Shown here piece by piece: positions 25,511 through 62,547 of a DNA stretch of 64,000 nt; the first letter of the stretch is position 1; each line of letters opens with the position of its first letter. The translations under genes were made by a program, and so were the position numbers. The stretch comes from a virus. The stretch is from the IMG/VR virus record IMGVR_UViG_3300029922_000013, positions 1-64,000 of that record; one strand, written 5' to 3'. The notes beneath the pieces were generated by a model that had not been told where the DNA came from, ran no database searches, and saw only the letters and a program-made list of their open reading frames with translations.

Positions 25511-26539
25511 TTAGAGATCTAAAAGAGGAAGGGGCTTGGGATAAACAGAGCATTCATTGGAAAGCCATGCTTTGGAGAGCTTAATACAGTAATCCTTATT
25601 TCTTGTCCAGTCTTCTTCTTTGATGTGAAGAACCTGAATTCCCTGATAAAGAAATGAATAAGAGTCTTTTATTTCATGATAATTTCTGATATCTTCATCC
25701 GACCAAAGCTTTTTTCTTTTATTTTTTCTCATACATTTAAAAGAATGGTGATAGGTACCATCAAATTCCACAGCTTTTTTCATTTTTTGATTGACAATAT
25801 CTAGCTCGAAACGTTTTATATGAGGTTTTGTAGGAATTTCTATTTTATAAAATTTAATCTTCTTCGAATCTGGCAGAACTTTTCTTATTTCACTTAGTAG
25901 TTCTAATTCCATAAGAGAACTTCCCTTAGATTTTTTCATATGCTGACAAATATCGTCTAGAATTTTCTTTCTATTAGCCGAACAGTAAGCCCCATTACTT
26001 TTTTTATAGAATTCTCCTCTGGTTCCATATTTACTAGCTTCTTTTTTTAAATCCTCGTGGGTCCAGTCCTCTCTTATTAGTCTTGTCATATGACTACATA
26101 TAAGATCTAGAATTTTTCTATTTTGTGCGGTTTGATAAGCATTATCATTTAATTTAGCAAAATCAATTCTAGTGCTATATTTTTGGGCTTCATGCGCTAG
26201 CTCTTGATTTGTCCATGAATAATGGAATTGTTTCATATGAGAACAAATTTGATCTATGTAATCTTTTCTACAGGCAGCTAAATACGCGCCCATCGCGTGA
26301 TTTTTAAAGTCGTTTTTTGAGGAATATTTACTAGCTTCTTTTTTAAGTTCTTCTAAAGTCCATTTCAATTTCGGAGATACTTTCCCAATAGATGCATTTT
26401 TTGGCATGTGAGAACAAACTTTATCAAGAGCTTTGATTTTTATAGCCGCCCTGTAAGCATTAAGGTACAATCTCTTAAATTCATATCTAGTTTTACATTT
26501 CAATGCTAGTTCTTGTATTTTTTCTAAATCCCATGTCAT
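25511..26539 (-). CDS. Homing endonuclease, repeat DNA-binding plus Vsr-like (EDxHD/PD-(D/E)xK) nuclease (copy 1)
   Basis: The start at 26539 (MTWDLEKIQELALKCKTRYE) is set by the promoter; the upstream in-frame ATGs lie inside it. About six repeats of roughly 38 residues (W-x2-EL-x2-EA-x-KY-x-[ST]R-x-[DE]F ... AY-x2-A ... LD-x-[IL]C-x-HM) cover residues 1-230 and probably bind DNA. The C-terminal 110 residues hold the nuclease core: ELDIVN, then AVEFDGTYHHSF, a Lys-Trp-containing helix (KKLWSDEDIRNYHEIKDSY) and IQVLHIKEEDW. The pattern fits Vsr-related homing endonucleases such as those interrupting phage genes. It is a free-standing insertion between the tail tube operon terminator and a baseplate gene. 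Sister copies lie at 40531 and 59701. Confidence 0.8.
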   Translation of the reverse strand: MTWDLEKIQELALKCKTRYEFKRLYLNAYRAAIKIKALDKVCSHMPKNASIGKVSPKLKWTLEELKKEASKYSSKNDFKNHAMGAYLAACRKDYIDQICSHMKQFHYSWTNQELAHEAQKYSTRIDFAKLNDNAYQTAQNRKILDLICSHMTRLIREDWTHEDLKKEASKYGTRGEFYKKSNGAYCSANRKKILDDICQHMKKSKGSSLMELELLSEIRKVLPDSKKIKFYKIEIPTKPHIKRFELDIVNQKMKKAVEFDGTYHHSFKCMRKNKRKKLWSDEDIRNYHEIKDSYSFLYQGIQVLHIKEEDWTRNKDYCIKLSKAWLSNECSVYPKPLPLLDL

Positions 26540-26547
26540 ATTAATAA

Positions 26548-26576
26548 AGATTATCATCACTAGGGACAAAAGTCAA
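26548..26576 (-). promoter_or_regulatory. Sigma-70-type promoter of homing endonuclease copy 1 (leaderless)
   Basis: TTGACT at 26576-26571, a 17-bp spacer and TAATCT at 26553-26548 on the - strand, with the ATG 8 nt further at 26539. No ribosome site is present between them. Confidence 0.75.
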
Positions 26577-27185: not shown

Positions 27186-29531
27186 TTATGCCGATTGCTG
27201 TACTGCAGAAATCGCGAAAGTGATTGGGACGAAGTAGATCGCTGTGGCCAGTTTAATCTCCACACTTACCGTCATGGTAGGAGCTGCAATAGAGATTTTA
27301 GCGTTCTTGAACCCGAGTGGAGCGTCACTGCTTGCAGCAATCAACTTCAATTGGAAATAGGTTCCCATTTTTTGCGTCAAGAAAGCTGACGCAGAAGCAG
27401 CTGAAACGTCCGCCAGTGATTGACCGACGAATGCATTAGCAAAACTGAACTTCAGATCGATAGCGATAATATCCGCGTCGTAAACAGCTTGTATGCTGTT
27501 GTACACGAAATTGTTGTCGATTCCGTAAGTTGTTTGATCTGACACCCAACGAACTCCTCCAACATCAGTAAAGAGTGGAAGCAAACCGGATTCCAGAGCT
27601 TGACTGGTATCGCCTGGATCGCCATTGTTATAACCCGTAGGATCAACAATACTAATCACATTGGCATACTTATTGACAATAGCTTTATAGAATCCGCCAG
27701 CTTGCATGCCTGCCGCGACTACTGCAGCGTACCAAGGTTGGAACTGAGTTACGACACCAAATGAATTGACTTGTGTAACGGATTGGAATGCGACAGAACA
27801 ACGGAAACTTGCCAATGATTGGGCCTGAGTTTCTGCATTGACAAAAAGTCCATTGTAAGATAGAATACAAATGCGATTTTTTCCGAGGCTTGGTTCGCTA
27901 TATTCGAGACAATGACTCTTGAGGAGTGCATTTGTTGCTGCAATAGTGTAAGTCGAATCCGGAGAAGTCTGATCTGCGATGATGTCTGCGCTGGCATCTT
28001 GAGAAATCAATGGCACGATAATGTTGCAATTGATGGAACCCAAGGAGTTGATAGCGTTTGCAACGTCGGCAGCCAGAGTGGCTCCACGAGTTCCACCTGC
28101 TAAGTAAGCAGGAGAAGCCATAGGAGTTGGAAGTCCGGAAGTCGCCGTAGCAGTAAAGGACATCAATCGGCTGGTCGCCATTGCTTGAGTGAATTCGTAC
28201 AAACCCATTTTGATACGGCCTGGCTCTTCACTTGCACCCGTAGAAGCGATACCGATTGCAGAAACTGCATCCAGAGCACTCGTAGGGAGCTGAGTAGCAG
28301 GAGAAGCAACGGTTGCACTATACCCAGGTTGAGAAGAGATGAAGGAGGCGAGTTGTCCTATAGTGGTGTAATCACTCAAAGTGATACTCAGATTACCGCC
28401 TGAACCGCCAGTGACCGTGGTTGTCAATACGCCGGCTGTTATAGTGAGAGTTCCAGTAGCTCCTTGATAACCTACGCTTAGAGCAACATCAGCGCTAGCT
28501 TGAAGCGTTTCGTTAACACCAGTCGTAGCATTTGAGTCCTGAATTTCAATTTCAGGTTCTTGGGAAGAAATGTACAAATTTGGTGTAAATCCAAGGGCTG
28601 CAAGATCACCAGGAGTCGAATCGATAAGTTCGAACGATTTACCCCATCCGTTACCCCATGCAGCGGAATCTGGATTCACTGCGAGTGTCAAAGTATTCGT
28701 AGCCATTCCCATGGATGCAGTCATCGCTTCCGGAAGCAATCTGGTGAATGTCGAGAAAGTAATGGTCGTGTCTCCAGTTCCACTGACTTTGGTCAAAGTT
28801 CCGGCAGGTAGAGGAGCCCCAGTCCCAGTAGCGAACAAAGTTGTTCCGGCGACAATAGTTGCCAAAACAGTGAAGGTTTGGGTATTATTACTATAAATTG
28901 CTCCTACAGTAGCATTAGCTGCCGTAATAGTAAAGTCATAGCGATTAAGTTCGGTAACCAAATGGCCGATAGTATCGTGATCGGCAGATGTAGCTGAAAG
29001 TGTTACGGTTGTCGCAGCGGCACCATTTATACGAATGCTGAAAGAATCGCCGTTGAGAGCCGAACCAAACGCTGGAATGGTGGTTCCCGTGACAGAAGGA
29101 GCTACTTCTGCAGCTGCGGACAATATCTGATAACGATCTTGATTGCCGAGAACACCCCAGTTTAAATCGAACAAGTCTCCATAAGAAGGAGCCAAACTAG
29201 CAGTTGCCATTGTTCCGGTATTCGTTTTTACAACGTAGACCTGAGTAGCAGTTCCGGTAATGTTAGCATCGTTGGAAGGAGATGCGATGGCCATAAAAGC
29301 ATCTACGATTTGACCACTCGTAAAGTTTTGCATTACCTTACTAATTTGGTCAGGTGTGTACAAACTTTGTGCAAGAGAAACTTGCTCGTAGCTTGGTCCA
29401 CCATCAGCTTCACCCAAAAGTACTACGATACCAGATGAAGCGACACCAACGGGCTGGCTAACAACGTTATAATTAACGTAAGCGCCAGGGATAACCGTAT
29501 TTACGAAAGTCGTATTTAGTCTTTGAGCCAT
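27186..29531 (-). CDS. Tail sheath protein (781 aa)
   Basis: The N-terminus MAQRLNTTFVNTVIPGAYVN with an early GIVVLLGEADGGPSYEQV and TPDQISKVMQNFTSGQIVDA is typical of contractile tail sheath proteins. A variable beta-rich insertion spans about residues 130-470. The conserved C-terminal core contains AAVVAAGMQAGGFYKAIVNK, then VSDQTTYGIDNNFVYNSIQA, and ends with a beta strand that donates to neighbours in assembled sheaths. At 781 residues it is at the long side for sheaths because of the insertion. It is followed by the tube gene. GGGAG is upstream. Confidence 0.85.
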   Translation of the reverse strand: MAQRLNTTFVNTVIPGAYVNYNVVSQPVGVASSGIVVLLGEADGGPSYEQVSLAQSLYTPDQISKVMQNFTSGQIVDAFMAIASPSNDANITGTATQVYVVKTNTGTMATASLAPSYGDLFDLNWGVLGNQDRYQILSAAAEVAPSVTGTTIPAFGSALNGDSFSIRINGAAATTVTLSATSADHDTIGHLVTELNRYDFTITAANATVGAIYSNNTQTFTVLATIVAGTTLFATGTGAPLPAGTLTKVSGTGDTTITFSTFTRLLPEAMTASMGMATNTLTLAVNPDSAAWGNGWGKSFELIDSTPGDLAALGFTPNLYISSQEPEIEIQDSNATTGVNETLQASADVALSVGYQGATGTLTITAGVLTTTVTGGSGGNLSITLSDYTTIGQLASFISSQPGYSATVASPATQLPTSALDAVSAIGIASTGASEEPGRIKMGLYEFTQAMATSRLMSFTATATSGLPTPMASPAYLAGGTRGATLAADVANAINSLGSINCNIIVPLISQDASADIIADQTSPDSTYTIAATNALLKSHCLEYSEPSLGKNRICILSYNGLFVNAETQAQSLASFRCSVAFQSVTQVNSFGVVTQFQPWYAAVVAAGMQAGGFYKAIVNKYANVISIVDPTGYNNGDPGDTSQALESGLLPLFTDVGGVRWVSDQTTYGIDNNFVYNSIQAVYDADIIAIDLKFSFANAFVGQSLADVSAASASAFLTQKMGTYFQLKLIAASSDAPLGFKNAKISIAAPTMTVSVEIKLATAIYFVPITFAISAVQQSA

Positions 29532-31074: not shown

Positions 31075-32133
31075 TCAATCTTCATATTCATACTCTCCCT
31101 CGCAATCGGGAGTATTTGGAACCGCAGGTTCTGTCACATCTACCCCTGCATACCAGTCCTGGTCATTTTCTTGTAATGGTGGAGTATTTAAGTTAGATAT
31201 TATACGAAGACCACCAATATAACCTTTTGGATTTTCTTCTGTAACGGCTGCTGGATCTTGATCCCGTAGAAGGACTGATTCAATATTTCTGTGAAGGCCG
31301 CGAATGAATTGCTGCTGCACTTTTCCAAACATGGTGATTTGACGACAAAATATTTCTTCGCCCCCAGCGTTAGAAAAATCCGGATTAAATATGTCAGTGC
31401 TAGTTATATGAGTTTCTGCAAAACCATTATGTTCGTAGAATTCTCTATAACGCAATAATCCAAACACCACAATAGAATGAAGCCACAAAAGAGTTTGAGG
31501 ATCGTTAGTCGCTAAAGTAATATTCCAGTTTTCCTCAAACCAAGATCTCCCGAGTCTAGAAGTAAAAAATCTATACTGAGGAATTACTCCTAGTTGTGTA
31601 GAGTCTAATTCAATGCCGGGTTGTATTTGAATTTCCCCGTCAGGAGTTATTCCTTCAATAACAACTCCAGCTCCATTCGACGGATTAACTAAAACCATTC
31701 CAGGAGAAACGGGAGCTATGTCGGTCCCAACAGGAACACCTACTAAACCAGTGGAAGCATCGAAACTGATAGGAGAAAAAGGTTTAACTACGTATGGAAT
31801 AGGTTGCCCCACCCTATTGGGCATAAGGATCAAGTCTTCCTCACTTATATCACTCATGGTTCGTAAATCTTGAACCTCGTTACTACTTCCAAGTGTTAGG
31901 AATATAGCAGGAAATTTTTCTTTATCCTTAGAAAATTGTAACTGCACATTAACATTATTATTAGAGAACCATTCCTTGGCCGCTAGTATTTGTTTTTGTC
32001 CAAATTGAGATTTCAAAAAAGGATTTTGAGTAAAATCATCTAGAATGTAATCTAAAAGCCATAGGTTGGTTTTTATATCCCCTAATGTTTTTTCTAGAAT
32101 TGTTTTAAGAAGTGCGTCTGTTTGAAATATCAT
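31075..32133 (-). CDS. Neck / tail-completion structural protein (352 aa)
   Basis: The N-terminal third is helical (MIFQTDALLKTILEKTLGDI), the middle is beta-rich (VVKPFSPISFDASTGLVGVP; GVVIEGITPDGEIQIQPGIE) and the C-terminal third has RSWFEENWNITLATNDPQTL, a pattern seen in proteins that close the head or tail end of myophages. It follows the gp10-like gene and precedes the charged protein and sheath genes, the usual place of neck and tail-terminator genes. AAGGA is upstream. The exact subunit is uncertain. Confidence 0.55.
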   Translation of the reverse strand: MIFQTDALLKTILEKTLGDIKTNLWLLDYILDDFTQNPFLKSQFGQKQILAAKEWFSNNNVNVQLQFSKDKEKFPAIFLTLGSSNEVQDLRTMSDISEEDLILMPNRVGQPIPYVVKPFSPISFDASTGLVGVPVGTDIAPVSPGMVLVNPSNGAGVVIEGITPDGEIQIQPGIELDSTQLGVIPQYRFFTSRLGRSWFEENWNITLATNDPQTLLWLHSIVVFGLLRYREFYEHNGFAETHITSTDIFNPDFSNAGGEEIFCRQITMFGKVQQQFIRGLHRNIESVLLRDQDPAAVTEENPKGYIGGLRIISNLNTPPLQENDQDWYAGVDVTEPAVPNTPDCEGEYEYED

Positions 32134-32136
32134 ATA

Positions 32137-33006
32137 CTAATCCTTCCACTTAGAAATAATGTCAGGAATAATTCTAGTGTAGAATTCATTTTCTGCCCAC
32201 ATCATAGCTTCTTCCATAAATTTGTTAGCTTTGTAACCAGGATGTATAAACTTGTCCTTTGGGGCTACTCCTGTTTCAGGATTCACAATGGGACTTTCCG
32301 AAGCAGTTCTAAACGTCATGAATGAGCGTGTTACTTTTACTTTACCTTTTTTATTAAGCTTAGCGTTACCTGCAGAGTCTTTATCTATCGCTTGATAAAT
32401 TCTCATTCTTTCTAGTGGATCACTTGACCATTTGTGACTGGATTTACCACCCTTGAAATCAAATTCGTGCAGCAGCCCTTCTTTAGGATTACCGTTTTTA
32501 TCTCTTTCAACTCCGGCCCACGGCACCGTTTCTAAGCCATTAGCTTTTCTACGTTTATTCATTGCTTTGAGTTCAAATCTAACGCGATCTGTTAGGCCTT
32601 TTTCATAGCCAGTTTGAAGGCTCGGTTTCTTAGAGTGTTCAAAGGGAATTACTAGATAACGACCATTTTTGCCGTGTTTTGTGCTTTTAGAAGAAAACAA
32701 CCAAGCATCTGTTTTCATATCAGTATTAGGGGGTATACCTTCTTCAATCCAATAGGCAGATCCAGACAAAGTGACGACGCTAGTGTTGGAATCTAGATGA
32801 TCCACTCTAAGATTTTGCTCATTATCTTTTCCACGGAATACTAATTGCAAACTAGGACTTAATTTTTTTTGAGCAAGTTCTATTATATGTTGTTTAGTAG
32901 CATTAGCCAAATCTCTAACGCTTTTAGAAAGTTCTTTTTTAACTTTTTCTTGTTCGCTTTTGCAAACTTCAAGAACATCTTTAGGATCAAGTTTGAGCTT
33001 AAGCAT
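32137..33006 (-). CDS. HK97 gp10-like neck/tail-completion protein (289 aa)
   Basis: The C-terminal part SFMTFRTASESPIVNPETGV, DKFIHPGYKANKFMEEAMMW is the signature of gp10-like neck proteins (a strand with F-x-T-[AV]S-x-S, then HPG and a helix). The N-terminus is a helix pair (LEVCKSEQEKVKKELSKSVR) followed by a beta domain with YWIEEGIP, also typical. A central basic insertion of about 100 residues is unusual and lengthens it compared with ordinary gp10 proteins (110-150 residues). It likely sits at the head-tail junction. Confidence 0.7.
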   Translation of the reverse strand: MLKLKLDPKDVLEVCKSEQEKVKKELSKSVRDLANATKQHIIELAQKKLSPSLQLVFRGKDNEQNLRVDHLDSNTSVVTLSGSAYWIEEGIPPNTDMKTDAWLFSSKSTKHGKNGRYLVIPFEHSKKPSLQTGYEKGLTDRVRFELKAMNKRRKANGLETVPWAGVERDKNGNPKEGLLHEFDFKGGKSSHKWSSDPLERMRIYQAIDKDSAGNAKLNKKGKVKVTRSFMTFRTASESPIVNPETGVAPKDKFIHPGYKANKFMEEAMMWAENEFYTRIIPDIISKWKD

Positions 33007-33008
33007 AT

Positions 33009-33269
33009 TTAGCCTTTTACAGGCACTCCGCCAGGCCCCATAACGCGACCTTCTTTCATATCAATGAATCTAACCTTACCGTTAGGGTCGGTTATTTTTT
33101 TCTGACCTTTTGCGTTTACCCCACCTTCTGGTATAGGATCTTTAGCAATATGGGGAGTGCTCGCTGTAGTAGGTAGCTTTTTTATTGATCCGGCGCCAGT
33201 AGCTGAATTAGCTACCGGCTTTGAACTGTGGGGATTGAGCAGCACTCTCCGGGGCCGCTTCTTTTTCAT
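33009..33269 (-). CDS. Small basic virion-block protein overlapping the Palm-domain gene (86 aa)
   Basis: The most plausible ATG is at 33269, which gives MKKKRPRRVLLNPHSSKPVA and a 62-nt overlap with the end of the upstream gene. No good ribosome site is seen. No start codon occurs in this frame after the upstream stop, so the overlap is unavoidable; a +1 frameshift from the upstream gene is an alternative. The C-terminal half (ITDPNGKVRFIDMKEGRVMG) resembles a short phage structural peptide. It is followed 2 nt later by the gp10-like gene. Confidence 0.5.
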   Translation of the reverse strand: MKKKRPRRVLLNPHSSKPVANSATGAGSIKKLPTTASTPHIAKDPIPEGGVNAKGQKKITDPNGKVRFIDMKEGRVMGPGGVPVKG

Positions 33270-34887
33270 GGGGATGCCCGCAATTAGGGCAAGCTTCATC
33301 ACTAGGCATTTCCTCAGAACCCGGTTGTTCTTCTGGATTTTCGCTTTGGCCTTCAATCTCGTTAACTTCTTGTTCAGTCTCTCCAGAATTATCTAATCCA
33401 GCCAATGAACAAAGTTCTATCATAGCTCTTAACATACTTATACACGCATCGTATAGTTCAGGTGCTTGATCTTTAGCTTTATCCAGGATCGCTTTCTGAG
33501 ACTTAAATCCTTCCAAAGCGTGACCAACCAATTGAGTCACCTTTTCTCGTTGAATATTGTCGGCATGTTGATCCAAACCACCTTGTAAAACTTCTGAAAG
33601 GTCCGGGTCAGATCCATTTGCATCTTCCTCACTTAAACCTAAGTCACCCTGTTTTTGATTATAGTCAGCTGGACGACTTGTACCATCTGGGTCCATATCT
33701 TGCAACATCTCTTGTTGATTATCTAAGTTAGCATCGAGTAAATCTGTTGTAGTTTTAGGCTGTCCGTCATCTATAATATCTTCAAAATCTTTAGAATTGT
33801 CAAGATTTTGATCCAGCAAATCTTCAGCAGAATCCCCATGTTGATCACAAGTGCAACTTGGACAATGCTGAGCTTCACCCATAGATTCTTGCTCGTAGTT
33901 TTCGGCTTCATCTGAAGTAGAATTTTCTATAGGAATGTCAGCCTGTGGTTGTAGTTGTTCAGTATCATTATATTTCAGATCGCTTGGCTTATCGCCTTGA
34001 GGTTGAGCCATACTTTGAGGAGCAGATCCTTCGGCTTGTCCACGATAATCTTTTGGAGCAGGTTTCTTGTCCATAGGTTCTCCATCTTTAGGGTCTGGCA
34101 TTTCTTCGTTCATTTTACGATCTGATTCCTGAACATCAGTTGAGACCGCTTCGAATGTTCTAGGTTGTGCGATGAGGTTTGGTTTTTTAATAGTAGGGGG
34201 AGTAGAGTCATTTGCTTGATAAGAATTGTCTCTCTGCTTTAAATCACTATTTTTGTAACCGGAATCGTAGCCGTGGTTGTTGTCTTGTTTAGGTGGCTCA
34301 GATTCGGTAGGCTCATTTTCATTAGAGTCCGAACCTTCAGGTAAGACTTGGCCCTGAGTATTCGGGCTGTCTGGAGCTTGATTTGCCAATCCTTCTTTTA
34401 CGGATTCAGGTTCGCCAGTGTCTTCTCCGCCACCTACAACGTCTGCGATTTTCTTTCTTTCTTCTTCATGAGGATCAGAAGCGTTCCCTACAGCATCGCT
34501 AATTTCTTGTTCAACAGAATCATCGTATTGTACAATTTGATCTTTCCCACGGGACTTGGCTGCCAACAGAGCCTTACCAGCTTGTGAAATAGTTTGCCCA
34601 TAACCAATGGACAGAGTCGCTTGAACCATATCGGCATAGTTTTGTCGAAGCTGTTCTAATAAATTTACGAAATCAGATGGTGCAACAAAGCTCCCCTCAT
34701 CTCCACCACCGCTTATCCATCGTCCACCATTAGCTTCCACGAATTCTTTAATCTGATTATTTCCAGCCGTAATAAGCTGAGAAACTTGAGATACTTGATC
34801 CAGATCATCAGAAAGAATGGCTCTAGCATGACGTTTGCCAATTCCATCGCCATCGAATGCAAATACTACTTGATTCTGATTATCCAT
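33208..34887 (-). CDS. Palm-domain (mCpol/GGDEF-like) nucleotide polymerase fused to an acidic, Cys-containing tail (559 aa)
   Basis: The first 130 residues show the core of minimal CRISPR-type cyclic-nucleotide polymerases and GGDEF enzymes: VVFAFDGDGIGKRH (Asp12 and Asp14), a helix, GGRWISGGGDEGSF (GGGDE at 60-64), then ATLSIGYGQTISQAGKALLA (SIGYG at 93-97) and AKSRGKDQI (110-118). Both metal-binding sites and the lysine-containing last helix are retained, so activity is plausible. Known relatives make cyclic di- or oligonucleotides. The following 400 residues are acidic, low-complexity and Gln/Asp/Asn-rich, with CPSCTCDQHG near 340 and CPNCGHPH near the end as possible zinc sites, and a helical block near 450-500. 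It lies in the neck/connector gene block between two structural-type genes, with GAGGAG upstream. Confidence 0.7.
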   Translation of the reverse strand: MDNQNQVVFAFDGDGIGKRHARAILSDDLDQVSQVSQLITAGNNQIKEFVEANGGRWISGGGDEGSFVAPSDFVNLLEQLRQNYADMVQATLSIGYGQTISQAGKALLAAKSRGKDQIVQYDDSVEQEISDAVGNASDPHEEERKKIADVVGGGEDTGEPESVKEGLANQAPDSPNTQGQVLPEGSDSNENEPTESEPPKQDNNHGYDSGYKNSDLKQRDNSYQANDSTPPTIKKPNLIAQPRTFEAVSTDVQESDRKMNEEMPDPKDGEPMDKKPAPKDYRGQAEGSAPQSMAQPQGDKPSDLKYNDTEQLQPQADIPIENSTSDEAENYEQESMGEAQHCPSCTCDQHGDSAEDLLDQNLDNSKDFEDIIDDGQPKTTTDLLDANLDNQQEMLQDMDPDGTSRPADYNQKQGDLGLSEEDANGSDPDLSEVLQGGLDQHADNIQREKVTQLVGHALEGFKSQKAILDKAKDQAPELYDACISMLRAMIELCSLAGLDNSGETEQEVNEIEGQSENPEEQPGSEEMPSDEACPNCGHPHEKEAAPESAAQSPQFKAGS

Positions 34888-35818
34888 TTTTATTACTCCT
34901 CAGAACTTCAAGCAACATTTCAATATTTTCAGAGTTCCATGATTTAGGAAAACTAACTTTAATACCGTCTTCAGTTTTCTTTAGAAAAACTTTCTTACCC
35001 ATATCTTGACCAAAACACATACAAGCACTTACGCCAGAATCATTAAAAATAACGCCATTGCAATCGGGACAATTGATCTGCTCACTTTTTACCATTTCAA
35101 TAGAAAATTCTTTTTTTGCAAGCTTCTTTTTTCTATTTTCTACGAACTCTGCCAACTGGAGAGATTTTTTTGTAGGCTCTAAAACGATTACGGTAGGCTT
35201 TGGAGCCTCTTTAGGTTTTGCCATTTCTTTGTGCTCTTCAGTTATTTTTTTATGTTCAGCAGACAATTGATTCAATTTAGCTAAAAATAATTGTTGAACA
35301 GCGTCTCTTTGCATGAGCTTGCCGTCTATAACTTTGTTGACTAAACTATGCAAATTCATACGTTCATCAATGATACGATTAATTTCTGCTTCTTTAGTAT
35401 GATCAACTTCTGTTTCTTTATCCAGATCTTCTACGTCATAAAGTTCTAGAATTGAAAGCAGCACAAGCCCCAAGCCTGGGATAGAACGGTGCAAGAAATC
35501 TGAAATTTTAACATTGTTTTGAAGTACTTGACCTGAAAAGCTATCGCGCTCATGCTTGGTCGTAGAAACGATGGTATCTTCTTTGCCGGGAATTCTAATT
35601 TCTTTAGTATCCCCAATTTGCATGGGAGACAATTCACGAATCAAAAGACTCAACAAAGCCTTAGGTACAATTTGAAGCCCTTGATATAGATCATTCGTAT
35701 CAGTGACAGTCCGAGTTCCTTGCTTGTAAATTTCGCTTTTAGACAAGTCATTCCCTAAGGATTCTAGAAAATCCTCGCCAAGCGTTTTAATAAGGAAGTA
35801 CTCGGCATTCTTTTTCAT
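34880..35818 (-). CDS. Virion-block protein with C-terminal zinc motif (312 aa)
   Basis: The protein is mostly helical, with a beta-rich part near residues 65-105 (IGDTKEIRIPGKEDTIVSTT). The C-terminal region has CPDCNGVIFNDSGVSACMCF, a CxxC-x11-CxC zinc-type motif. The end overlaps the Palm-domain gene by 8 nt, so the two are coupled. No recognised family; possibly a head or neck protein or the functional partner of the Palm-domain protein. Confidence 0.6.
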   Translation of the reverse strand: MKKNAEYFLIKTLGEDFLESLGNDLSKSEIYKQGTRTVTDTNDLYQGLQIVPKALLSLLIRELSPMQIGDTKEIRIPGKEDTIVSTTKHERDSFSGQVLQNNVKISDFLHRSIPGLGLVLLSILELYDVEDLDKETEVDHTKEAEINRIIDERMNLHSLVNKVIDGKLMQRDAVQQLFLAKLNQLSAEHKKITEEHKEMAKPKEAPKPTVIVLEPTKKSLQLAEFVENRKKKLAKKEFSIEMVKSEQINCPDCNGVIFNDSGVSACMCFGQDMGKKVFLKKTEDGIKVSFPKSWNSENIEMLLEVLRSNKNG

Positions 35819-39683: not shown

Positions 39684-40538
39684 TTAATATTCACCAATCA
39701 CATATCTTCTAGCAAAGATACCTTTTATTCTTTGAATTAATTCGTCTCTATTTCTAGTAAGTTCTTCAATACGAAGTGCGAATCTACGAGGACCAAGAGA
39801 GCTGGAACTTTGGGAAATACCGTCTTGGGTTTGAGATTGAGATGTAGCAAAATATAGGACAGCTATTTGGGATAGCAAGTTGATGGCAGCGTTAGTTCCT
39901 ATTAATTGATTCACAATGATTGGCACCTGTCCTTCTCTATTAGATAAACCGGACGAGTAGGTCAGCTGCCAATAGGCGGGCACTTGCCCACAGTTGCCTT
40001 GGGCACCCCAGATAGCCAAAAATGCGATCCCGGCCCCTTGATTTGTAGCCGTGATTTGGGTTCCGCTCGCACTAGTAGCGCCAAAGGCTGCGAGCAAAGG
40101 CACCACATTGACTTGACCTATGCTAAAATTTGCCGTTGTTATCCACATACTCGGAACAGTAAAGATAACCTCGTCATTAGATGCAACGATAGAAAGATCT
40201 TCAACACTTATGATTGGGCCGTGGCGGGGCTTTAGATGTATAAAAGCCTTGTATAATGAGTAATCAAAAACTAACTGTTCTTTGAATTCTTCTCTTGTTA
40301 TAGTCGTATTTAACTGAGCCTCAGTTTCATTCATGGCCATCATGATACGATCTTTTAGCTCATCATCAGTAAATCTATCGCCATTAGGAAATACTAGCGG
40401 GATACCTTTTAGGTATCTGCTCCTAAATAACTCTGGCGTAAGGAATGGTTCAACACGAGCGAGCAACCCACTCGTTTGGGAGGCATGCACCGGGTACATG
40501 CTTGTCTGAAAAGTGCGGGACCTTGAGAAATCAGCCAT
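39684..40538 (-). CDS. Head-tail connector / head-completion protein (284 aa)
   Basis: The N-terminal half is helical with LTPELFRSRYLKGIPLVFPN and ELKDRIMMAMNETEAQLNTT, a pattern like the adaptor proteins that sit below the portal. A beta-rich segment follows (YSLYKAFIHLKPRHGPIISV). The C-terminal half has a helix pair (LRIEELTRNRDELIQRIKGI). Its ribosome site GGAG lies inside the coding end of the homing endonuclease upstream, with an 8-nt overlap. Confidence 0.6.
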   Translation of the reverse strand: MADFSRSRTFQTSMYPVHASQTSGLLARVEPFLTPELFRSRYLKGIPLVFPNGDRFTDDELKDRIMMAMNETEAQLNTTITREEFKEQLVFDYSLYKAFIHLKPRHGPIISVEDLSIVASNDEVIFTVPSMWITTANFSIGQVNVVPLLAAFGATSASGTQITATNQGAGIAFLAIWGAQGNCGQVPAYWQLTYSSGLSNREGQVPIIVNQLIGTNAAINLLSQIAVLYFATSQSQTQDGISQSSSSLGPRRFALRIEELTRNRDELIQRIKGIFARRYVIGEY

Positions 40539-41502
40539 TTTTTTGCTCCAAAAATTCTAGGCATCTTTTGATGCAGTCTTGTTTGTCTTTTGACCATTCC
40601 TCTTCTTTAATATGAAGAATCTTAATTCCTTTAGATAAGAAGTGCGCGTCTTTAATTTGATGGTAATTTACCAGATCTTCTTTTGGCCAATCTTTGCGAG
40701 AACGACTCAAGCCTTTTACGCTATGCCAGTACTTCCCATCCATTTCTATTCCTAAATTACTTTTGTCAATAAAGATGTCAATGTCAAACCCTTTGATGTG
40801 CGGCTTTCCTTCAATTTTAACATTTACATCCCTTATTTTCCTAGCAGTTGGAATTGTAGATGTAATTGCGTCAAAAAGTTCTTGCTCACACCTAGATACG
40901 CCACCTGAACGCTTCATGTGCCCACACATTTTTGGCAAAATATTTTTTCTTTTACCGGCTCTATAAGCACTCGGACTGCTATTTTTAAATTCACTTCTCG
41001 TGTTATATTTTAAAGCTTCTGCGTAAAGATCGGCATCTGTCCAGTCTGTTCTAATGAGTCTGATCATATGTCCACAAATAAGATCCATCATATTTCTTTT
41101 TAATGCGAGGTCATAGGCTTTACGGCTGTAGTTTTCAAAATCTTTTCTGGTACCGTATTTCAAAGCTTCTTGATGCAATTGTAGATTTGTCCATTCTCTG
41201 CGTTTAAGATCCATGTGATTACAAATAACGTCTAACATCTCTCTTTTTAAAGCAATTTGATAAGCATTAAAACTATTTTTTTGAAACTCTCCTCTGGAAG
41301 TATATTTTTTAGCTTCATTTTTAAGAGCATCGAGAGGCCAAGAATAATGTTTAATTATCATATGGGTGCATATACTATCTAAAATGCCCATATTACGTGC
41401 GGCCTGATAAGCTCCTGAGCTGTGCTCGAAGAATTCGGTCCTGGTGCTATATTTTTTAGCCTCAGTATTTAAATTTTTGAATGACCATTTTTTAGTCTTC
41501 AT
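40531..41502 (-). CDS. Homing endonuclease, repeat DNA-binding plus Vsr-like nuclease (copy 2)
   Basis: Residues 1-200 contain five repeats of about 38 residues (for example WPLDALKNEAKKYTSRGEFQ), homologous in pattern to those of the copies at 25511 and 59701. The nuclease part reads GFDIDIFID, LGIEMDGKYWHSV, a Lys/Trp helix (DWPKEDLVNYHQIKDAHF) and IKILHIKEEEW. The DGxYxHS and D-x-D motifs are intact. It is inserted between a connector gene and the 41547 structural gene and its stop overlaps the next start. The gene carries its own promoter with the ATG 6 nt after the -10. Confidence 0.8.
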   Translation of the reverse strand: MKTKKWSFKNLNTEAKKYSTRTEFFEHSSGAYQAARNMGILDSICTHMIIKHYSWPLDALKNEAKKYTSRGEFQKNSFNAYQIALKREMLDVICNHMDLKRREWTNLQLHQEALKYGTRKDFENYSRKAYDLALKRNMMDLICGHMIRLIRTDWTDADLYAEALKYNTRSEFKNSSPSAYRAGKRKNILPKMCGHMKRSGGVSRCEQELFDAITSTIPTARKIRDVNVKIEGKPHIKGFDIDIFIDKSNLGIEMDGKYWHSVKGLSRSRKDWPKEDLVNYHQIKDAHFLSKGIKILHIKEEEWSKDKQDCIKRCLEFLEQKNG

Positions 41503-43227: not shown

Positions 43228-45066
43228 TTAGGTAGTTACAACCACATCGTCGAGTGTAACCGCTGTTTGAGCATATAGAGATCCGTGTACTGTGCTAGTA
43301 GTTTGGCAAGCGATGTTGGTGGCTGCCAATATAACGCCTCTGGCTACGCTGCTTACACCGAATGTGACGCTTCCAGCTACAGCCCAGAATACATTAGATG
43401 CTTGTGCTCCACCAGTAAGAACTATTTGAGCAGACGACGCCATATTTAGAGTGCTCGACAGTTGGAAAATCCAAACATCATTAACTCCGCCGTTCAATGT
43501 AAGATTACCAGTGATGGAAGTTGGAACAGTGAGTTTGTACAAACCAGGAACTAGAGTCAGACCACCCAAGGCCCCAGCACCAGGATTGGTAGCCGTTGGC
43601 ATTGTACGACCTTGAGCGTCTGTATATGCCGCACCCATTGCTGAAATGGCACTAGTCAGATTAGCTGGAGTCGGTGCGCTATAGTCTGCAGCATAGATAT
43701 CGCCAGTCACATTTGGAGCGGTAGAGAATTCTCCGCTTCCATCAAGAGTTAGAGTAAAACCGGTAATTGCCGTATGCGCAATTGGGGATACGCCCATATT
43801 CCCAGTGATTTCAGATCCCGAAGTGTCGCTAATACCAGATTCCGTGAGTATTCTGTATGTAGCTGCAGCTCCAAGATTGACAGCAGCAGGTCCAAGTGCC
43901 GTAATAGTGTAGGCTGCAGATCCAATATTAGAGTTAGAAAGACCGGCATGAGTTGCCAATACTTTTACGGTTTCACTTTGATTTACAGAAATAGGCCCCG
44001 TATAAAGAGTCGATCCCGTGGTAGGAGTACTTCCGTTTGTTGTATAGTAGAACGTTGCTCCAGTCGTAAGAGAGCTAATCGTAATCGATTGGGTTCCAGC
44101 GTAAGTTCCAGCAACTGGTGAAAAAGTTGGAGTTGCAACTTGGGAACCCCCAATAATATAAGCTGCAGACGCCACTGTAGAATTTGCAGAACCGGCTTTT
44201 ACGGCTATTGCATTGATTGGCTCGCTTGCACTTACAGTAATAGGCCCCGTATAAAGAGTACTTCCAGCCGTTGGAGTTGATCCATTAGTCGTATAGTAAA
44301 TGGCTGCTCCAGAAGTAATGGAGGTGATGGTCACTGATTGGGTTGTAGCATAAGTACCGGCCACTGGAGAAAAAACTGGAACAGCAACTGTACTAATAGT
44401 GGGAGTTGGAGAAATGGTAACGGTAGAACCACTTACAGTGGTGCTGGCGGCTGCAAGAGCAGCTAGAGCCGTATTAGTCTTAGTAGCAACTTGAGCAGCA
44501 GTGTCACTGCTGAGGATAGTCACTTCAATGCCAGTAAAACCAATTGGGGCTGGATTTGTATTAGTTCCACCAGAAACATTATACCAAACATCGTACGCAT
44601 TAGTATTTCCAGCAGTGTAAACTACGAAATAAGCACCTGGTCCAAAGTTTGGAAAGGTACTTCCTGCTGTAAACGTTGTTACAGCCATAAGCTGTTGAGC
44701 AGGTCCAACGTAAGAAGGCGCAACGCTAAATCCAACAGGCATAGAAACATTTGATGGAGGAAGTGGAAAAGTGTTAGGCGATGGAGGCAGACTAGACAAG
44801 ATTTGAGCTAACATCGCTGGATTACTAGTAAGATCGAATCCGTCCGTGATAACTTGAAGATCTGCCTGAGACAAAGTGTATTGACCTAAAATAGCGGCTT
44901 GAAAATGAGCGGCTACGGTTGCACTACAAAGAGCAACAACCAGTCTATTATAAGTAAAAGGCGAAAGGACCAAACTATTGGTGATCGCGTTAGCCAGCTC
45001 ATTACCAGCAAATACGCTTGTTAGAGCATCTTGAAGATAGATGATAGTGTTATTAGGTAGGGCCAT
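43228..45066 (-). CDS. Virion adhesin with two chitobiase-type Ig repeats and a DUF3494 (ice-binding-type) domain (612 aa)
   Basis: Residues 1-230 are an N-terminal anchoring part with a helical first 90 residues, then a beta-rich domain. Residues 231-305 and 312-390 are two copies of the CHB_HEX_C_1 type: PxFSPVAGTYAxTQSxTI, YYTTNGSTPTxGSTLYTGPI. The C-terminal 215 residues start VNLGAAATYRILTESGISDT, with GNMGVSPI, GDIYAAD, LTSAISAMGAAYTDAQGR, LVPGLYKLT and DVWIFQLSSTLNM. This is the order of DUF3494 ice-binding and adhesin beta-helix proteins. In bacteria these bind ice or surfaces; on a phage particle it may bind a surface polymer, chitin-like glycan or ice. A late box and structural-type location support a virion protein. 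Confidence 0.8.
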   Translation of the reverse strand: MALPNNTIIYLQDALTSVFAGNELANAITNSLVLSPFTYNRLVVALCSATVAAHFQAAILGQYTLSQADLQVITDGFDLTSNPAMLAQILSSLPPSPNTFPLPPSNVSMPVGFSVAPSYVGPAQQLMAVTTFTAGSTFPNFGPGAYFVVYTAGNTNAYDVWYNVSGGTNTNPAPIGFTGIEVTILSSDTAAQVATKTNTALAALAAASTTVSGSTVTISPTPTISTVAVPVFSPVAGTYATTQSVTITSITSGAAIYYTTNGSTPTAGSTLYTGPITVSASEPINAIAVKAGSANSTVASAAYIIGGSQVATPTFSPVAGTYAGTQSITISSLTTGATFYYTTNGSTPTTGSTLYTGPISVNQSETVKVLATHAGLSNSNIGSAAYTITALGPAAVNLGAAATYRILTESGISDTSGSEITGNMGVSPIAHTAITGFTLTLDGSGEFSTAPNVTGDIYAADYSAPTPANLTSAISAMGAAYTDAQGRTMPTATNPGAGALGGLTLVPGLYKLTVPTSITGNLTLNGGVNDVWIFQLSSTLNMASSAQIVLTGGAQASNVFWAVAGSVTFGVSSVARGVILAATNIACQTTSTVHGSLYAQTAVTLDDVVVTT

Positions 45067-46416: not shown

Positions 46417-47301
46417 ATGCATACCTATACCGATAAAGATGTTGCAAAACTTATTGCGGACGTAGAAAAAGCATTTACTGCTCAATTGGCTAAAGCTGAA
46501 GACATGTCTCTTGCTAAATCTGAAGATGGTGAAAAAGACCATGAAGATAAAGAAGAGCATAAAGAAAAGCCTGAACACGAAAAACCTTTCAAACATGAAG
46601 CTAAAGACGGTGAGTCTAAGCAACATGATGACGGGGAAGAACATCATGATGGGAACGATGAGTCCCATGATGAAAATGACAAAGAACATGGTGGACAAGA
46701 AGAACACCATGAAGAAGGCCATGATCAGGGCCACGACTATGATGAAGAAGACATGCAGCACATGGAAAAAATGTACCGCTCTATGTCTCCTGGTGAACAG
46801 AAACATCATAGTGATTGTCTCGCAAAGTGTATGGGTAAGACTGAAGCTAAGCCATCAGATATGAGCAAAAATGAAAATGGAAGTCAAAAAAGGGGCAATG
46901 GCGGCGAAATGTCCGCTTGTGAACCTAAAGACAGTCCAGGTGCTAAGTCTGAAGCAAGTAAGGCCCATGGAGATAAAATGGAAAAATCAGAAAACCAAGA
47001 AGTCGAGCTACTTAAATCTGAACTCGCATCTCAAAAAGAAAAGTTTGAAGCAGTTCAAGAATTCTTGACTAAATTGGCTAAAAAAGCTGTCCCTCAAGGT
47101 AAGGCTATTACCTCACTCGATGTTATCGCTAAATCCGAAACACCAAGTGAAGAAAAAACCTTTACTAAGGCTCAGATCACCGAAATTCTTAATACGAAGA
47201 CGGCTGATCCGTCACTTAAGAAGTCTGATAGGGATGCAGTCACATCCTATTATCTCAATGGTCAGTTAAACGTTAACAGTATCAGCCACCTGCTTAAATA
47301 G
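46417..47301 (+). CDS. Histidine/acid-rich scaffold candidate upstream of the major capsid protein (294 aa)
   Basis: Residues about 40-110 are extremely rich in His, Glu, Asp and Lys (for example EEHHEEGHDQGHDYDEED), a likely metal-binding disordered region. Later a helical region with a heptad pattern (ELLKSELASQKEKFEAVQEF) and a final folded segment (TKAQITEILNTKTADPSLKK) appear. The gene lies immediately before the major capsid gene, where scaffolding proteins are usually encoded. The coiled coil and charge fit a scaffold. The His-rich region is not typical and may bind divalent metal. GAGGAG is upstream. Confidence 0.65.
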   Translation: MHTYTDKDVAKLIADVEKAFTAQLAKAEDMSLAKSEDGEKDHEDKEEHKEKPEHEKPFKHEAKDGESKQHDDGEEHHDGNDESHDENDKEHGGQEEHHEEGHDQGHDYDEEDMQHMEKMYRSMSPGEQKHHSDCLAKCMGKTEAKPSDMSKNENGSQKRGNGGEMSACEPKDSPGAKSEASKAHGDKMEKSENQEVELLKSELASQKEKFEAVQEFLTKLAKKAVPQGKAITSLDVIAKSETPSEEKTFTKAQITEILNTKTADPSLKKSDRDAVTSYYLNGQLNVNSISHLLK

Positions 47302-58563: not shown

Positions 58564-59640
58564 CTATTTTTTCTCTTTTTTCTCAACAAAACTATCCATA
58601 TCGCTGCCAACCATCATTTTAGCAAGCTTCTTTTCAGCTTTCATGGATTTGTTTAAACAAAGAACTTGCCCAATAGCCGCGATTTCGCCCTTGGCTAGGT
58701 GTGGCATAGTTTTTGACATATAAGTTTCAAAAGCTTCTCTCTTACCCCAAGCTTTATATTCTTGTTCTGCTCGTTGAAGGAGTGTGGACTTCTTCATCTT
58801 CTTATCTAAAGCTTCTTTTCCCAAGGCAGCTCCACCAACCATATTACCTGGGGCAGTCATTCCTGAGCCTGCAGTCATCGCTTTTTTCATTGATTCGCCT
58901 TTACCGATTTCACCTTGAATAGCTTTAGGAGCTACAGGTCCGAATTTAGGGGAACTAGCCACAGCCATTCTATGGTTCTTTGTTCCTGATTTTCTAGCAG
59001 CTATCGGACGATTTTTGGGGGAACCCACTAGATAAGATGGCTGACCGCCTCTTTGGGCATCCGAAGGGAATTTTTTGCCTGGATTTTGACCTTTAGAAAG
59101 AAGTTCAATAGTAAAAGAAGGCTCAGATTTAAAAATGGAATCTGAGTCAGTTTTTTCAGGATCTGCTGGGATCATTTCGGCGACACAAGTTTTATTTGCC
59201 GGGATATTAGTCAAAGTTATCTTACGAGCCACCGATTTGGTAACTATTAGACCAACCTTATCTATCTTGGAACCCTCGATAGAGAAGCCAACCATCGGTT
59301 GTTCATCTGGATGCTCAGCATCATCCATAAAAAGAGCGGCAACTTCTCTTGAAGAGTCTTTTTTATCATCGAACAAGCGTCCCATTACATACAAAAAGGG
59401 AGTCTTGCATTTTTCCCAATAATATGCGTGCCTGTCATTTTCACAATCTTTATCCGAGAATATTTTTTTATATTCGAGAATTTTACCGCAAATTTGGGAA
59501 GGAAGTTTTGATTCATGCTCGTAATTAAAAGCAGCACCAACCAATGAGGAGCAGTCAATCCCCGCTAGATCAACGATTTCGCCAGCAGTATCAATTGCTT
59601 GACTTGAACCAATTCCATCAATATAAGTGCAGTTAGCCAT
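58564..59640 (-). CDS. Capsid maturation protease (358 aa)
   Basis: The first 160 residues are the protease: NYEHES with His42, then MVGFSIEGSKIDK with Ser120, then ITLTNIPANKTC. His and Ser in this order and the conserved GFSIEG pattern are typical of the herpesvirus-type prohead proteases of tailed phages. The C-terminal 200 residues are basic, Gly/Lys/Ala-rich and partly helical, a scaffold-like tail as in protease-scaffold fusions. It lies on the opposite strand from the other capsid genes, which is unusual. A late box is 15 nt upstream. Confidence 0.75.
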   Translation of the reverse strand: MANCTYIDGIGSSQAIDTAGEIVDLAGIDCSSLVGAAFNYEHESKLPSQICGKILEYKKIFSDKDCENDRHAYYWEKCKTPFLYVMGRLFDDKKDSSREVAALFMDDAEHPDEQPMVGFSIEGSKIDKVGLIVTKSVARKITLTNIPANKTCVAEMIPADPEKTDSDSIFKSEPSFTIELLSKGQNPGKKFPSDAQRGGQPSYLVGSPKNRPIAARKSGTKNHRMAVASSPKFGPVAPKAIQGEIGKGESMKKAMTAGSGMTAPGNMVGGAALGKEALDKKMKKSTLLQRAEQEYKAWGKREAFETYMSKTMPHLAKGEIAAIGQVLCLNKSMKAEKKLAKMMVGSDMDSFVEKKEKK

Positions 59641-59700: not shown

Positions 59701-60720
59701 TTAAATAGTTGCGGTACTTTTTAAAAAATCCAAACATCTTTGAAAACATTTCCCTTTATTTTTTAAAAAGTCTTTTTCTTTAATATGAAGTATTTTGATA
59801 CCTATAGATTTGAAGTAAGAATCCTTAATTTCATGGTATTTTTTAATATCCTTATCTGGCCAATGAGGTTTAGATCTTTTCAATCCACGAAAGGAATGAT
59901 GGTAGGTTCCGTCAAATTCCACTCCTAATTTGAGTTCTGGTATATAAATATCGATGTCTAGACCATAAATGTGAGGTTTATTTAATATATTTATATTTCT
60001 TTTTCTTAGCTTCGTCGAAGTTGGATAGTATTCTTTTATAAAAGAAGCTAATTCTTTTTCTGGACGAGATTCAGACGATCTTATGGGCATGTGGACACAA
60101 ATTTCATCCATTATTCCCATTCTAAATGCAGCTTTGTAAGCACCAAGATCGTTTTTTTCAAAATCACTTCTAAAAATATATTTTTTAGCAACTTCGTTTA
60201 TTTTTTTATAATTCCAACTATTATAACCTTCTGTCATATGTTCGCAGATTTTATTTAAAATACCTCTTTTATCGGCTGCTGAATAAGCTGCCGGATTTGC
60301 ATTTAAAAAATCTTTTTTACTGTTGTATTTGTTAGCTTCTTCTTGCAATTTTTCTAGAGACCATCTAAAATTAGGGTTGTTCTCACCATTGAAATTTTGA
60401 ATTTTCATATGGGAGCAAACTTTTTGTAGGATGCCAAACTTTTTAGCAGCCTTATATGCCCCATAAGCATGTTTTATAAAATTACTTTTTATATGATATT
60501 TCAGTGCTTCTGTCAAAATTTTTTCTTCATTCCATTTAAAACGAGGATTGTTTTCCCCAGCCATACCCACACGTTTTGGCATGTGGGAACAAACTTGTTC
60601 CATTACGTTAAGTCGTTTCGCAGCTTGATAAGCTGCATAATTGCCTCTCATCAATTTACTTCTGGTAGTGTATTTGTTAGCTTCTTCTTGCAATTTTTCT
60701 AGAGACCATTTGCTTTTCAT
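59701..60720 (-). CDS. Homing endonuclease, repeat DNA-binding plus Vsr-like nuclease (copy 3)
   Basis: Residues 1-210 contain five 38- to 45-residue repeats (WSLEKLQEEANKYTTRSKLM type), and the segment SLEKLQEEANKY recurs at residues 6 and about 121. The nuclease part is GLDIDIYIPELKLGVEFDGT, YHHSFRGL, then HWPDKDIKKYHEIKDSY and IKILHIKEKDF. It lies between the protease and chaperonin genes. Its own promoter is TTGACT-N17-TAATCT with the ATG 7 nt after. The three copies share architecture but differ strongly in sequence, so they are not recent duplicates. Confidence 0.8.
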   Translation of the reverse strand: MKSKWSLEKLQEEANKYTTRSKLMRGNYAAYQAAKRLNVMEQVCSHMPKRVGMAGENNPRFKWNEEKILTEALKYHIKSNFIKHAYGAYKAAKKFGILQKVCSHMKIQNFNGENNPNFRWSLEKLQEEANKYNSKKDFLNANPAAYSAADKRGILNKICEHMTEGYNSWNYKKINEVAKKYIFRSDFEKNDLGAYKAAFRMGIMDEICVHMPIRSSESRPEKELASFIKEYYPTSTKLRKRNINILNKPHIYGLDIDIYIPELKLGVEFDGTYHHSFRGLKRSKPHWPDKDIKKYHEIKDSYFKSIGIKILHIKEKDFLKNKGKCFQRCLDFLKSTATI

Positions 60721-60780: not shown

Positions 60781-62547
60781 TTAAGCTCTTTTGTTTGCTT
60801 CATTAACATTCATTTCAGGATATTCGCAATTTCTTAAAAATTCGCTATCTGCTTTGGCTTCTTCTCTCTCATATATAGGATCTCGTTCAAAGCTAATAAT
60901 TCCCCCTATAGCTCCAAACAAGCTTGCAATAGATACTGCATTGACCAAGGAATCTTGGACGCTTCTAGTCGCATCAAATAGACCCAACTCTTCGGCCTTC
61001 CCGAACTGTTCATTTTCGATGTCATAAACTAGCTGAGGATCTTTAAGAAGCTCCTCTATGATTACTCCAATTTCTTCCCTATCATAGCCCGCATTAGACA
61101 GCAGCTTCTCTGGTAGGCAAAGCAAGGAAGAAAATAGAACGGTCATAGCCGGATCGTTTTCTGGTAGTTTTTCTGCAAGCAACATAGCCATGTCCAAACT
61201 CATTCTGCACCCGCCCGGCAAGCACCCATAGACGATGGCGCTCTTTGCCGCCATAACAGCATCTTCTACTCGGTCAGCCTTCTCTTTAAGGCTCCCAGAG
61301 CTATTACTGAAGATAGTGAGCTTGACAATCCCGCTAGTGAGTTTGCCTAGACGTTCTTCTAGCCAAATTTTCTCTGCGATGCTTTCAGAATTGTCTTTCA
61401 TCTTTTTAAGCTCTTCAGCACGAATTTCAATGTTGAATGGATCACTTTCACCTACAACCGTACTGCGGTAGCGATACATTTCGAACGATTCCATCCCAGT
61501 ACCGAGATCTTTTAGAGTAACTGTGCCTAGTTGATCTTTAAACCCAAACACCTTAGCATTGCAAAAGGCCCCAAGATCCAACAAAAACTGTTGCTGGCTA
61601 TTGACATGCTGAGCCATTGGTGTTCTCATGGGGACGATATTAATAGTACCTGGATTGGCAAAATTGTAAGCTAGTGTAGTCATGACGTTATCAGAAAATC
61701 CATGAGCTACTACGACCACATTTTTAAAGTTTTCGTCGCCATCAGCGTACCTTTGACCAATCTGGTCAAAAATAGGTGACAATCCAATGAGATCGGTAAT
61801 CATTCCATCAAATAGGACAAAAATAGGTTTAATTAAGTGGCATCTAAGTGATGCTTGATCATTGATGTACACATTGCTAAATTTGCCAAGATCTTCCATT
61901 CCGGTTGGAATGGGCATCCCATCAATTCGTTCAACTTTATAGCTATCATTGCCCGTAGCCTCACGAATAGTCACATGGCTGGAATCAGAATAGCCGAGTA
62001 GCTCAAAGCATTCGATAACAGCATCGGCAAGCTCTTTATCCCCATTGGCAGAGATAGTAGCTACTTTGCGGATAAGTTCTTTGTTTTCTTCTGTGATCTT
62101 GATTGCTCGGCTTTCAATGTAAGGAATTAGAATTTCTTTAACTACTTTGTGAATTCTACGGATAGCTTTTTGTGGAGAATACTTGGGATTTTGTTCACAA
62201 AAATCAAACATATGCTTGATGATATTGTAAGATAGAATGGTAGCCGTAGTAGTACCATCGCCTACCGTATTAGCGGTTCTAACAGCTGCATCTCTAGCAG
62301 ATTCGATTATCAGATGCTCATAAGAGTCTTCTGAACCCAAATTCTTAAAGATAGTCACCCCATCTTTAGTCAACCTATTTGGGATGTTAGGAAGACTTTC
62401 TTCAATCAATGTCACACGACCACCTGGGCCGAGAGAACTTCCAACTATGTCCGATACTTTCTTCATTGTCCTTAAAACGATCTTTTTAAGCTGTTCTTGG
62501 TCAGATAAATAAGATTTTGGAGCTGTTTTAGCTTTTCTGATAGACAT
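60781..62547 (-). CDS. Phage GroEL-like chaperonin (588 aa)
   Basis: Chaperonin ATP-binding motifs are complete: SLGPGGR near 38-44, TKDGVTIF at 60-67, GDGTTTATIL at 96-105 and RVEDAVMAAKSAI with YGCLPGGC in the last third (the ATP-hydrolysis Asp is in RVEDA). Length 588 is longer than host GroEL (about 548), with changes in the apical domain (residues about 200-380) that binds substrates and co-chaperonin. No GroES gene is seen in the window. Phage chaperonins are known from some large myophages, where they are thought to fold phage proteins. Here it is a single gene, downstream of a coiled-coil gene in the same direction. Confidence 0.9.
   Translation of the reverse strand: MSIRKAKTAPKSYLSDQEQLKKIVLRTMKKVSDIVGSSLGPGGRVTLIEESLPNIPNRLTKDGVTIFKNLGSEDSYEHLIIESARDAAVRTANTVGDGTTTATILSYNIIKHMFDFCEQNPKYSPQKAIRRIHKVVKEILIPYIESRAIKITEENKELIRKVATISANGDKELADAVIECFELLGYSDSSHVTIREATGNDSYKVERIDGMPIPTGMEDLGKFSNVYINDQASLRCHLIKPIFVLFDGMITDLIGLSPIFDQIGQRYADGDENFKNVVVVAHGFSDNVMTTLAYNFANPGTINIVPMRTPMAQHVNSQQQFLLDLGAFCNAKVFGFKDQLGTVTLKDLGTGMESFEMYRYRSTVVGESDPFNIEIRAEELKKMKDNSESIAEKIWLEERLGKLTSGIVKLTIFSNSSGSLKEKADRVEDAVMAAKSAIVYGCLPGGCRMSLDMAMLLAEKLPENDPAMTVLFSSLLCLPEKLLSNAGYDREEIGVIIEELLKDPQLVYDIENEQFGKAEELGLFDATRSVQDSLVNAVSIASLFGAIGGIISFERDPIYEREEAKADSEFLRNCEYPEMNVNEANKRA

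Follow-up and report, generated by a model that had tools for sequence, protein, structure and literature searches.

What is a domain of the kind that makes cyclic nucleotides doing among the neck and tail genes of a phage, and can it still work there? The question is raised by a stretch of 64,000 nucleotides (positions 1 to 64,000 of the IMG/VR virus record IMGVR_UViG_3300029922_000013; hereafter "the window"), in which an earlier note, made by inspection of the sequence, had pointed out a nucleotide-polymerising Palm domain at the N-terminus of an ORF in the structural gene block, and had compared it with the mCpol, GGDEF and Cas10 families. The features of the locus are collected in Table 1.

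Table 1. Features of the mCpol locus and of its surroundings (window coordinates)
Feature	Position	Strand	Remarks
mCpol-palm assembly-block protein	33208..34887	(-)	0-frame ORF, 559 aa; Pfam/NCBIfam/PADLOC matches
N-terminal mCpol palm, residues 1-130	34498..34887	(-)	PF18182, AF2, Foldseek
DGDGIG, residues 12-17	34837..34854	(-)	D12 aligns with KpOptS catalytic Asp6; D14 invariant (40/40)
GGGDE, residues 60-64	34696..34710	(-)	D63 aligns with KpOptS catalytic Asp57; kept in 39/40
AKSRGKD, residues 110-116	34540..34560	(-)	K111 and K115 kept in 39/40
First Cys knuckle CPSC, residues 342-345	33853..33864	(-)	
C-terminal helical module, residues 445-499	33391..33555	(-)	HMM search; AF2 helices 431-495, pLDDT mostly 77-93
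Second Cys knuckle CPNC, residues 533-536	33280..33291	(-)	
Candidate +1 ribosomal frameshift site TCC_CCA_CAG	33226..33234	(-)	CCCCACA, at an identical codon phase in all 7 members of the +1 type
"KLP" tail extension, +1 frame	33009..33233	(-)	
Upstream Zn-ribbon gene	34880..35818	(-)	overlaps start of mCpol gene by 8 nt
phrog_16819 gene, downstream in the conserved slot	32137..33006	(-)	
SP10-terminator-like / phrog_1000 gene	31075..32133	(-)	conserved in the slot
Tail sheath	27186..29531	(-)	40% identical to Mx1 tail sheath; query for finding relatives
Head maturation protease (phrog_1028)	58564..59640	(-)	candidate reader of [LIMFV]xKSE

An mCpol palm in a conserved slot of myophage genomes

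The ORF and all the motifs claimed for it are present (including SIGYG, residues 93-97), and its N-terminus is a true mCpol palm. It scores far above chance against Pfam (mCpol, PF18182: E=1.1e-17, 64.9 bits, cut-off 26.4), NCBIfam (NF033576: 42.4, cut-off 40) and PADLOC (CARF_HEPN_mCpol: E=3.5e-7, over the mCpol part of the profile), and phmmer searches of the PDB identified two Panoptes OptS chains (about 1e-6). An AlphaFold (AF2) model, for which 37 family members were used as input, yields the Palm fold with a pLDDT of about 97 (residues 10-130), followed by a long disordered stretch and by the C-terminal helices. A Foldseek comparison of the palm with the PDB puts OptS in each of the first six places (TMt 0.85-0.88, rmsd 1.5-1.9 A), with Cas10 and GGDEF proteins ranking next and weaker, while the viral structure library returned a single strong match, an uncharacterised phage protein. 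Of the three families, mCpol is thus upheld by the profile cut-offs and by the single OptS-like palm fold; the other two have to be dropped. The sole match to a GGDEF-family profile (PF24898, E=0.27) is not significant, so the domain is not a GGDEF diguanylate cyclase, and Cas10 is rejected because the palm2 profile gives 23.1 bits, below the Pfam cut-off of 27, and the model has a single palm rather than a multidomain protein. Cas10 palm and GGDEF domains belong to the same palm superfamily, but the window protein possesses neither HD nor regulatory domains. Members of the mCpol family have been described in bacteria and archaea, together with effectors; we found no account of mCpol in phage structural genes in the literature searched, with the preprint server and most subscription journals lying outside the search.

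Relatives were collected from IMG/VR with the tail sheath as query (213 found, 80 kept), and further loci came from two palm scans and from two contigs of a Myxococcota metagenome-assembled genome (MAG), giving 40 distinct palm domains overall. All 40 occupy the same slot in related myophages, between the Zn-ribbon gene and the phrog_16819, terminator-like and sheath genes. The proposed placement among neck and tail genes is confirmed. In the first set of loci (the counts include overlapping loci of the same contigs) the palm lies 2.9-4.4 kb upstream of the sheath in 44 cases, the upstream DNA is without a palm in 3, and another 44 do not extend far enough for a decision. A single palm copy was found in each of six records of 149-177 kb, that of Mx1 among them. 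A scan of bacterial genomes for the sheath revealed none. Myxococcus phage Mx1, the sole match among phage records, shows the same gene order, with the Zn-ribbon gene upstream and phrog_16819-like, terminator-like and sheath genes downstream; the Zn-ribbon gene adjoins the mCpol gene in the MAG contigs too, and two genes intervene in Mx1. Mx1 is a cultivated phage, though its palm is degenerate.

Several other genes of this phage deserve a mention in their own right. The window encodes a protein that combines an ice-binding-like domain (PF11999, E=5.7e-65) with Fn3/chitobiase-type repeats (43228-45066, minus strand), a Cpn60 chaperonin (60781-62547, minus strand; PF00118, E=5.7e-32), and three related proteins with repeated modules of ~45 residues and a restriction-endonuclease-like C-terminus (25511-26569, 40531-41502 and 59701-60720, all on the minus strand), which are scattered between the structural genes and are perhaps mobile endonucleases (one has a weak match to PF18741). 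Elsewhere in the full record we found a CYTH-domain protein (about 90530-91102; a borderline match that falls slightly short of the Pfam cut-off) and an IMP dehydrogenase (128225-129391; PF00478, E=5.1e-91), each of which may have to do with nucleotide metabolism.

Conservation of the active site and loss of the palm

Conservation was counted over the 40 distinct palm domains, with the window copy as the numbering reference. D14, G62, G95 and G97 are invariant; next in order of conservation come A23, D63, G17, G55, K111 and K115. Position 64 is Glu in 35 domains and Gln in 4; position 36, which matches the base-selecting Ser30 of OptS, is Ser in 33 and Thr in 7; and position 12 is Asp in 29, Asn in 10 and Ser in Mx1. 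The palm evolves under a dN/dS of 0.07-0.17 where this could be computed. The sequences in an alignment of 31 palms differed too much for a pattern search, and the palm tree was not used to place OptS and Mx1, which are joined to it by long branches.

In OptS both catalytic Asp residues, D6 and D57, hold metals, and replacement of either by Asn abolishes synthesis (PMC12657218). The window copy keeps both of these residues (D12 and D63) together with the base-selecting Ser and the two Lys, and by homology to OptS we infer that D12, D14, D63 and E64 group at one site. Because D6N or D57N abolishes synthesis in OptS, the window palm is predicted to be catalytically competent, while the palms with D12N and that of Mx1 (11 of the 40 domains) are predicted to be inactive. 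The match of S36 to Ser30, which influences base choice, suggests ATP as a likely substrate.

The D12N form characterises one clade, fully supported on the sheath tree (loci L032, L042, L083, L051, L038, L082, L112, L114, L120 and L123), which otherwise keeps D14, D63, E64, K111 and K115 and whose palm is under strong purifying selection (dN/dS 0.07-0.08). The palm of Mx1 is still recognised by PF18182 (E=4.6e-4), yet it has lost D12, D63, E64, K111 and K115 and, judged by these residues, is fully degenerate. The palm is missing altogether from three slot proteins (L024, L035 and L065), which retain the knuckles and the helical module described below; in L024 and L035 the slot protein begins right where the upstream gene ends. 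Relocation of the palm was ruled out, since none was found anywhere in the records behind L035 and L065 (170,618 and 166,169 bases). As the palm-less three occupy two places among palm-bearing phages on the sheath tree, the simplest explanation is that the palm was lost at least twice. The palm is therefore a modular, detachable N-terminal module. With 11 of 40 domains lacking an Asp that is essential in OptS and three slot proteins lacking the palm, production of a signal cannot be the universal role of the slot protein; catalytic activity appears dispensable for the conserved role of the slot protein, and a nucleotide-signal reading fits the window copy but not all of its relatives.

The C-terminal half and its frameshifted extension

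Full-length members share a common layout: the palm, Cys knuckles or an acidic linker, the helical module and, in most of them, a small tail. The region between palm and module consists of acidic stretches and CxxC knuckles. The window copy has two knuckles, many relatives have 4-6 CPYC-type motifs in tandem, and the D12N clade members examined have none. HMM searches detect the helical module in every slot protein complete at both ends, including the palm-less ones, and among full-length slot proteins the palm never occurs without it. Searches with the C-terminal half against PHROGs and PDB profiles gave no match, and AF2 modelling of this half plus the tail produced only a beta-hairpin, at moderate confidence. 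For the window copy the earlier description of this region ("about 400 acidic residues" and a pair of Cys clusters) holds; it overlooked the helical module (~431-499) and also the conserved +1-frame extension behind the frameshift site.

This extension, the KLP tail (KLP...GVPVK), comprises about 60-70 residues, follows the helical module and always starts near the stop codon of the 0 frame. Thirteen members encode it in-frame; 7, among them the window phage, have it in the +1 frame and about 22 in the -1 frame. By profile it was not found in part of the D12N clade. An in-phase X_XXY_YYZ heptamer, of the form C_CCA_AAA/G or A_AAA_AAG, occurs within the last 13 codons in 21 of 22 members of the -1 type, as against a mean of 1.17 and a maximum of 5 for random windows of the same genes (2000 draws), and all 7 members of the +1 type carry NCC_CCA_CA, in a single phase and 11-29 bases upstream of the stop, all these counts being taken over related sequences that are not fully independent. 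A conserved frameshift site is thus strongly supported at the sequence level. The splitting of the tail is not put down to sequencing error, as the site is common to different phages. The tail is also unlikely to be a separately started gene: there is no start codon near the junction in the +1 frame, and conservation follows frame 0 upstream of the junction and the frame of the extension downstream of it; weak internal starts exist further upstream in some members. That a +1 shift, a -1 shift and plain fusion provide three solutions to one join argues that an extended isoform is needed, and two isoforms of the slot protein are probable in phages where the tail is reached by frameshifting.

Such C-terminal extensions, made interchangeably by +1 shift, -1 shift or in-frame fusion, are known from phage coat and tail proteins (PMC5009743). 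The T7/T3 coat protein and the coat and tail proteins of Listeria phages PSA, A118 and A500 likewise acquire a small extension near the 3' end by these three routes, but we found no sequence relation to them, and the mCpol protein differs in having an N-terminal enzyme domain. Because frameshift and fusion isoforms are the expression style of coat and tail proteins, the slot protein is probably a virion or assembly protein.

Candidate head-protease sites and a possible association with the virion

The motif [LIMFV]xKSE, which we regard as a candidate site of the head maturation protease, is found 230 times in the structural loci, compared with 11-22 times in scrambled orders. In the record of the window it occurs 14 times within 27-61 kb and twice elsewhere, and its over-representation spans 29842-59640 of the window as well as the structural loci of relatives. 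It is richest in the protein encoded upstream of the major capsid gene (46417-47301). This motif or its KAE form is present in 16 of 48 slot proteins, in several of them right behind the palm (residues 149-154); neither form is found in the window copy. Together with the conserved slot and the 3' frameshift sites, the motifs in relatives lend indirect support to an association of the slot protein with the virion. T4 Alt is a phage enzyme that is packaged and injected; the palm, if packaged, would work alike, with the difference that the window copy has no candidate protease site.

Functional interpretation

The closest known system is Panoptes, whose OptS/mCpol synthase (PF18182; PDB 9NWN, 9MNR and 9PD0) shares with the window palm the fold, the catalytic Asp pair, the base-selecting Ser and the K..GK(D/N) motif. 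The differences lie in the context: the window palm is phage-encoded within a structural block, is fused to Cys knuckles, an acidic linker, a helical module and a frameshifted tail, and has no 2TM-beta effector in its record, and some of its phage relatives have lost catalytic residues or the whole domain.

The explanation that we favour, tentatively and short of calling it probable, is that of a virion or assembly protein with a detachable palm that makes a cyclic dinucleotide acting in the host. According to this scheme, a conserved protein of the neck/head-tail block of large myophages, whose core would be the helical module with the Cys-knuckle/acidic linker, carries in the window phage a palm with a complete active site, which would in all likelihood dimerise and join two ATP (or ATP and GTP) as OptS of Panoptes does. 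The product would act in the host either once the protein has entered from the virion or at a late stage of infection, possibly as a decoy or mis-signal for immune effectors that sense cyclic nucleotides, or for host signalling; this decoy or mis-signal role is a reasonable guess only. A bolder version, which we consider unlikely, holds that a clade of lytic myophages delivers a virion-built synthase of the Panoptes/CRISPR type along with its DNA and so pre-empts nucleotide immunity, and that in some lineages the module has been inactivated or given up in an arms-race-like fashion. The host context makes no immune target evident, because cyclic-nucleotide defence enzymes are rare in the GTDB phylum to which the MAG with two of the phage contigs belongs (Myxococcota, which may not include the host of the window phage): SMODS was found in 2/56 cases, the Cas10 palm exceeded the cut-off in 1/56, and mCpol, the phage contigs aside, was found in 0/57. 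Nor did the PF18153 profile find a partner effector of the Cap15/OptE type in the record, so that there is little to support a role directed specifically against Panoptes.

It is possible, if somewhat doubtful, that the palm has instead been repurposed as a non-signalling module, that is, a switch binding ATP and metal that serves structure or timing during neck/head assembly, or else a dimerisation unit, with turnover absent or incidental. Gene position and frameshifting point to assembly, and this alternative would account for the spread of D12N through a whole clade (10/40) that keeps the rest of the site under purifying selection, given that D6N alone kills OptS (PMC12657218), and for the palm of Mx1, which keeps a fold-level signal without the catalytic residues. 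Against it speak the 29 of 40 domains that keep both catalytic Asp, the ranking of active-site residues among the most conserved positions, and the outright loss of the palm in two lineages, which would be incompatible with an essential switch of assembly.

We regard it as improbable that the protein stays outside the virion, is made late, and uses its palm to raise cyclic dinucleotide for the timing of lysis or for the exclusion of a second phage: a gene in the late structural block and a window copy without a head-protease site would suit such a role, but the strict slot and the conserved 3' frameshift or fusion to the tail fit a part of the virion better. Finally, a phage-carried defence system resembling Panoptes, suggested by the fact that mCpol is the Panoptes synthase (PMC12657218), can be dismissed as extremely improbable, since the PF18153 profile for 2TM-beta/Cap15-type effectors found no match in the whole 150,858-base record, the neighbours are structural genes, and the palm belongs to a single fused protein rather than to an operon with an effector.

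Implications

Earlier descriptions place mCpol in bacterial defence, where it makes cyclic nucleotides that phages in turn try to eliminate. Here it stands in a structural-block protein of a whole group of phages, with the catalytic residues intact in most members. The frameshift and candidate protease-site signals provide handles for the annotation of this poorly annotated group. If the palm is active and delivered into the host, phages would supply immune cyclic nucleotides and not only destroy them; if it is inactive, the fold of a defence enzyme would have been turned into a part of the virion.
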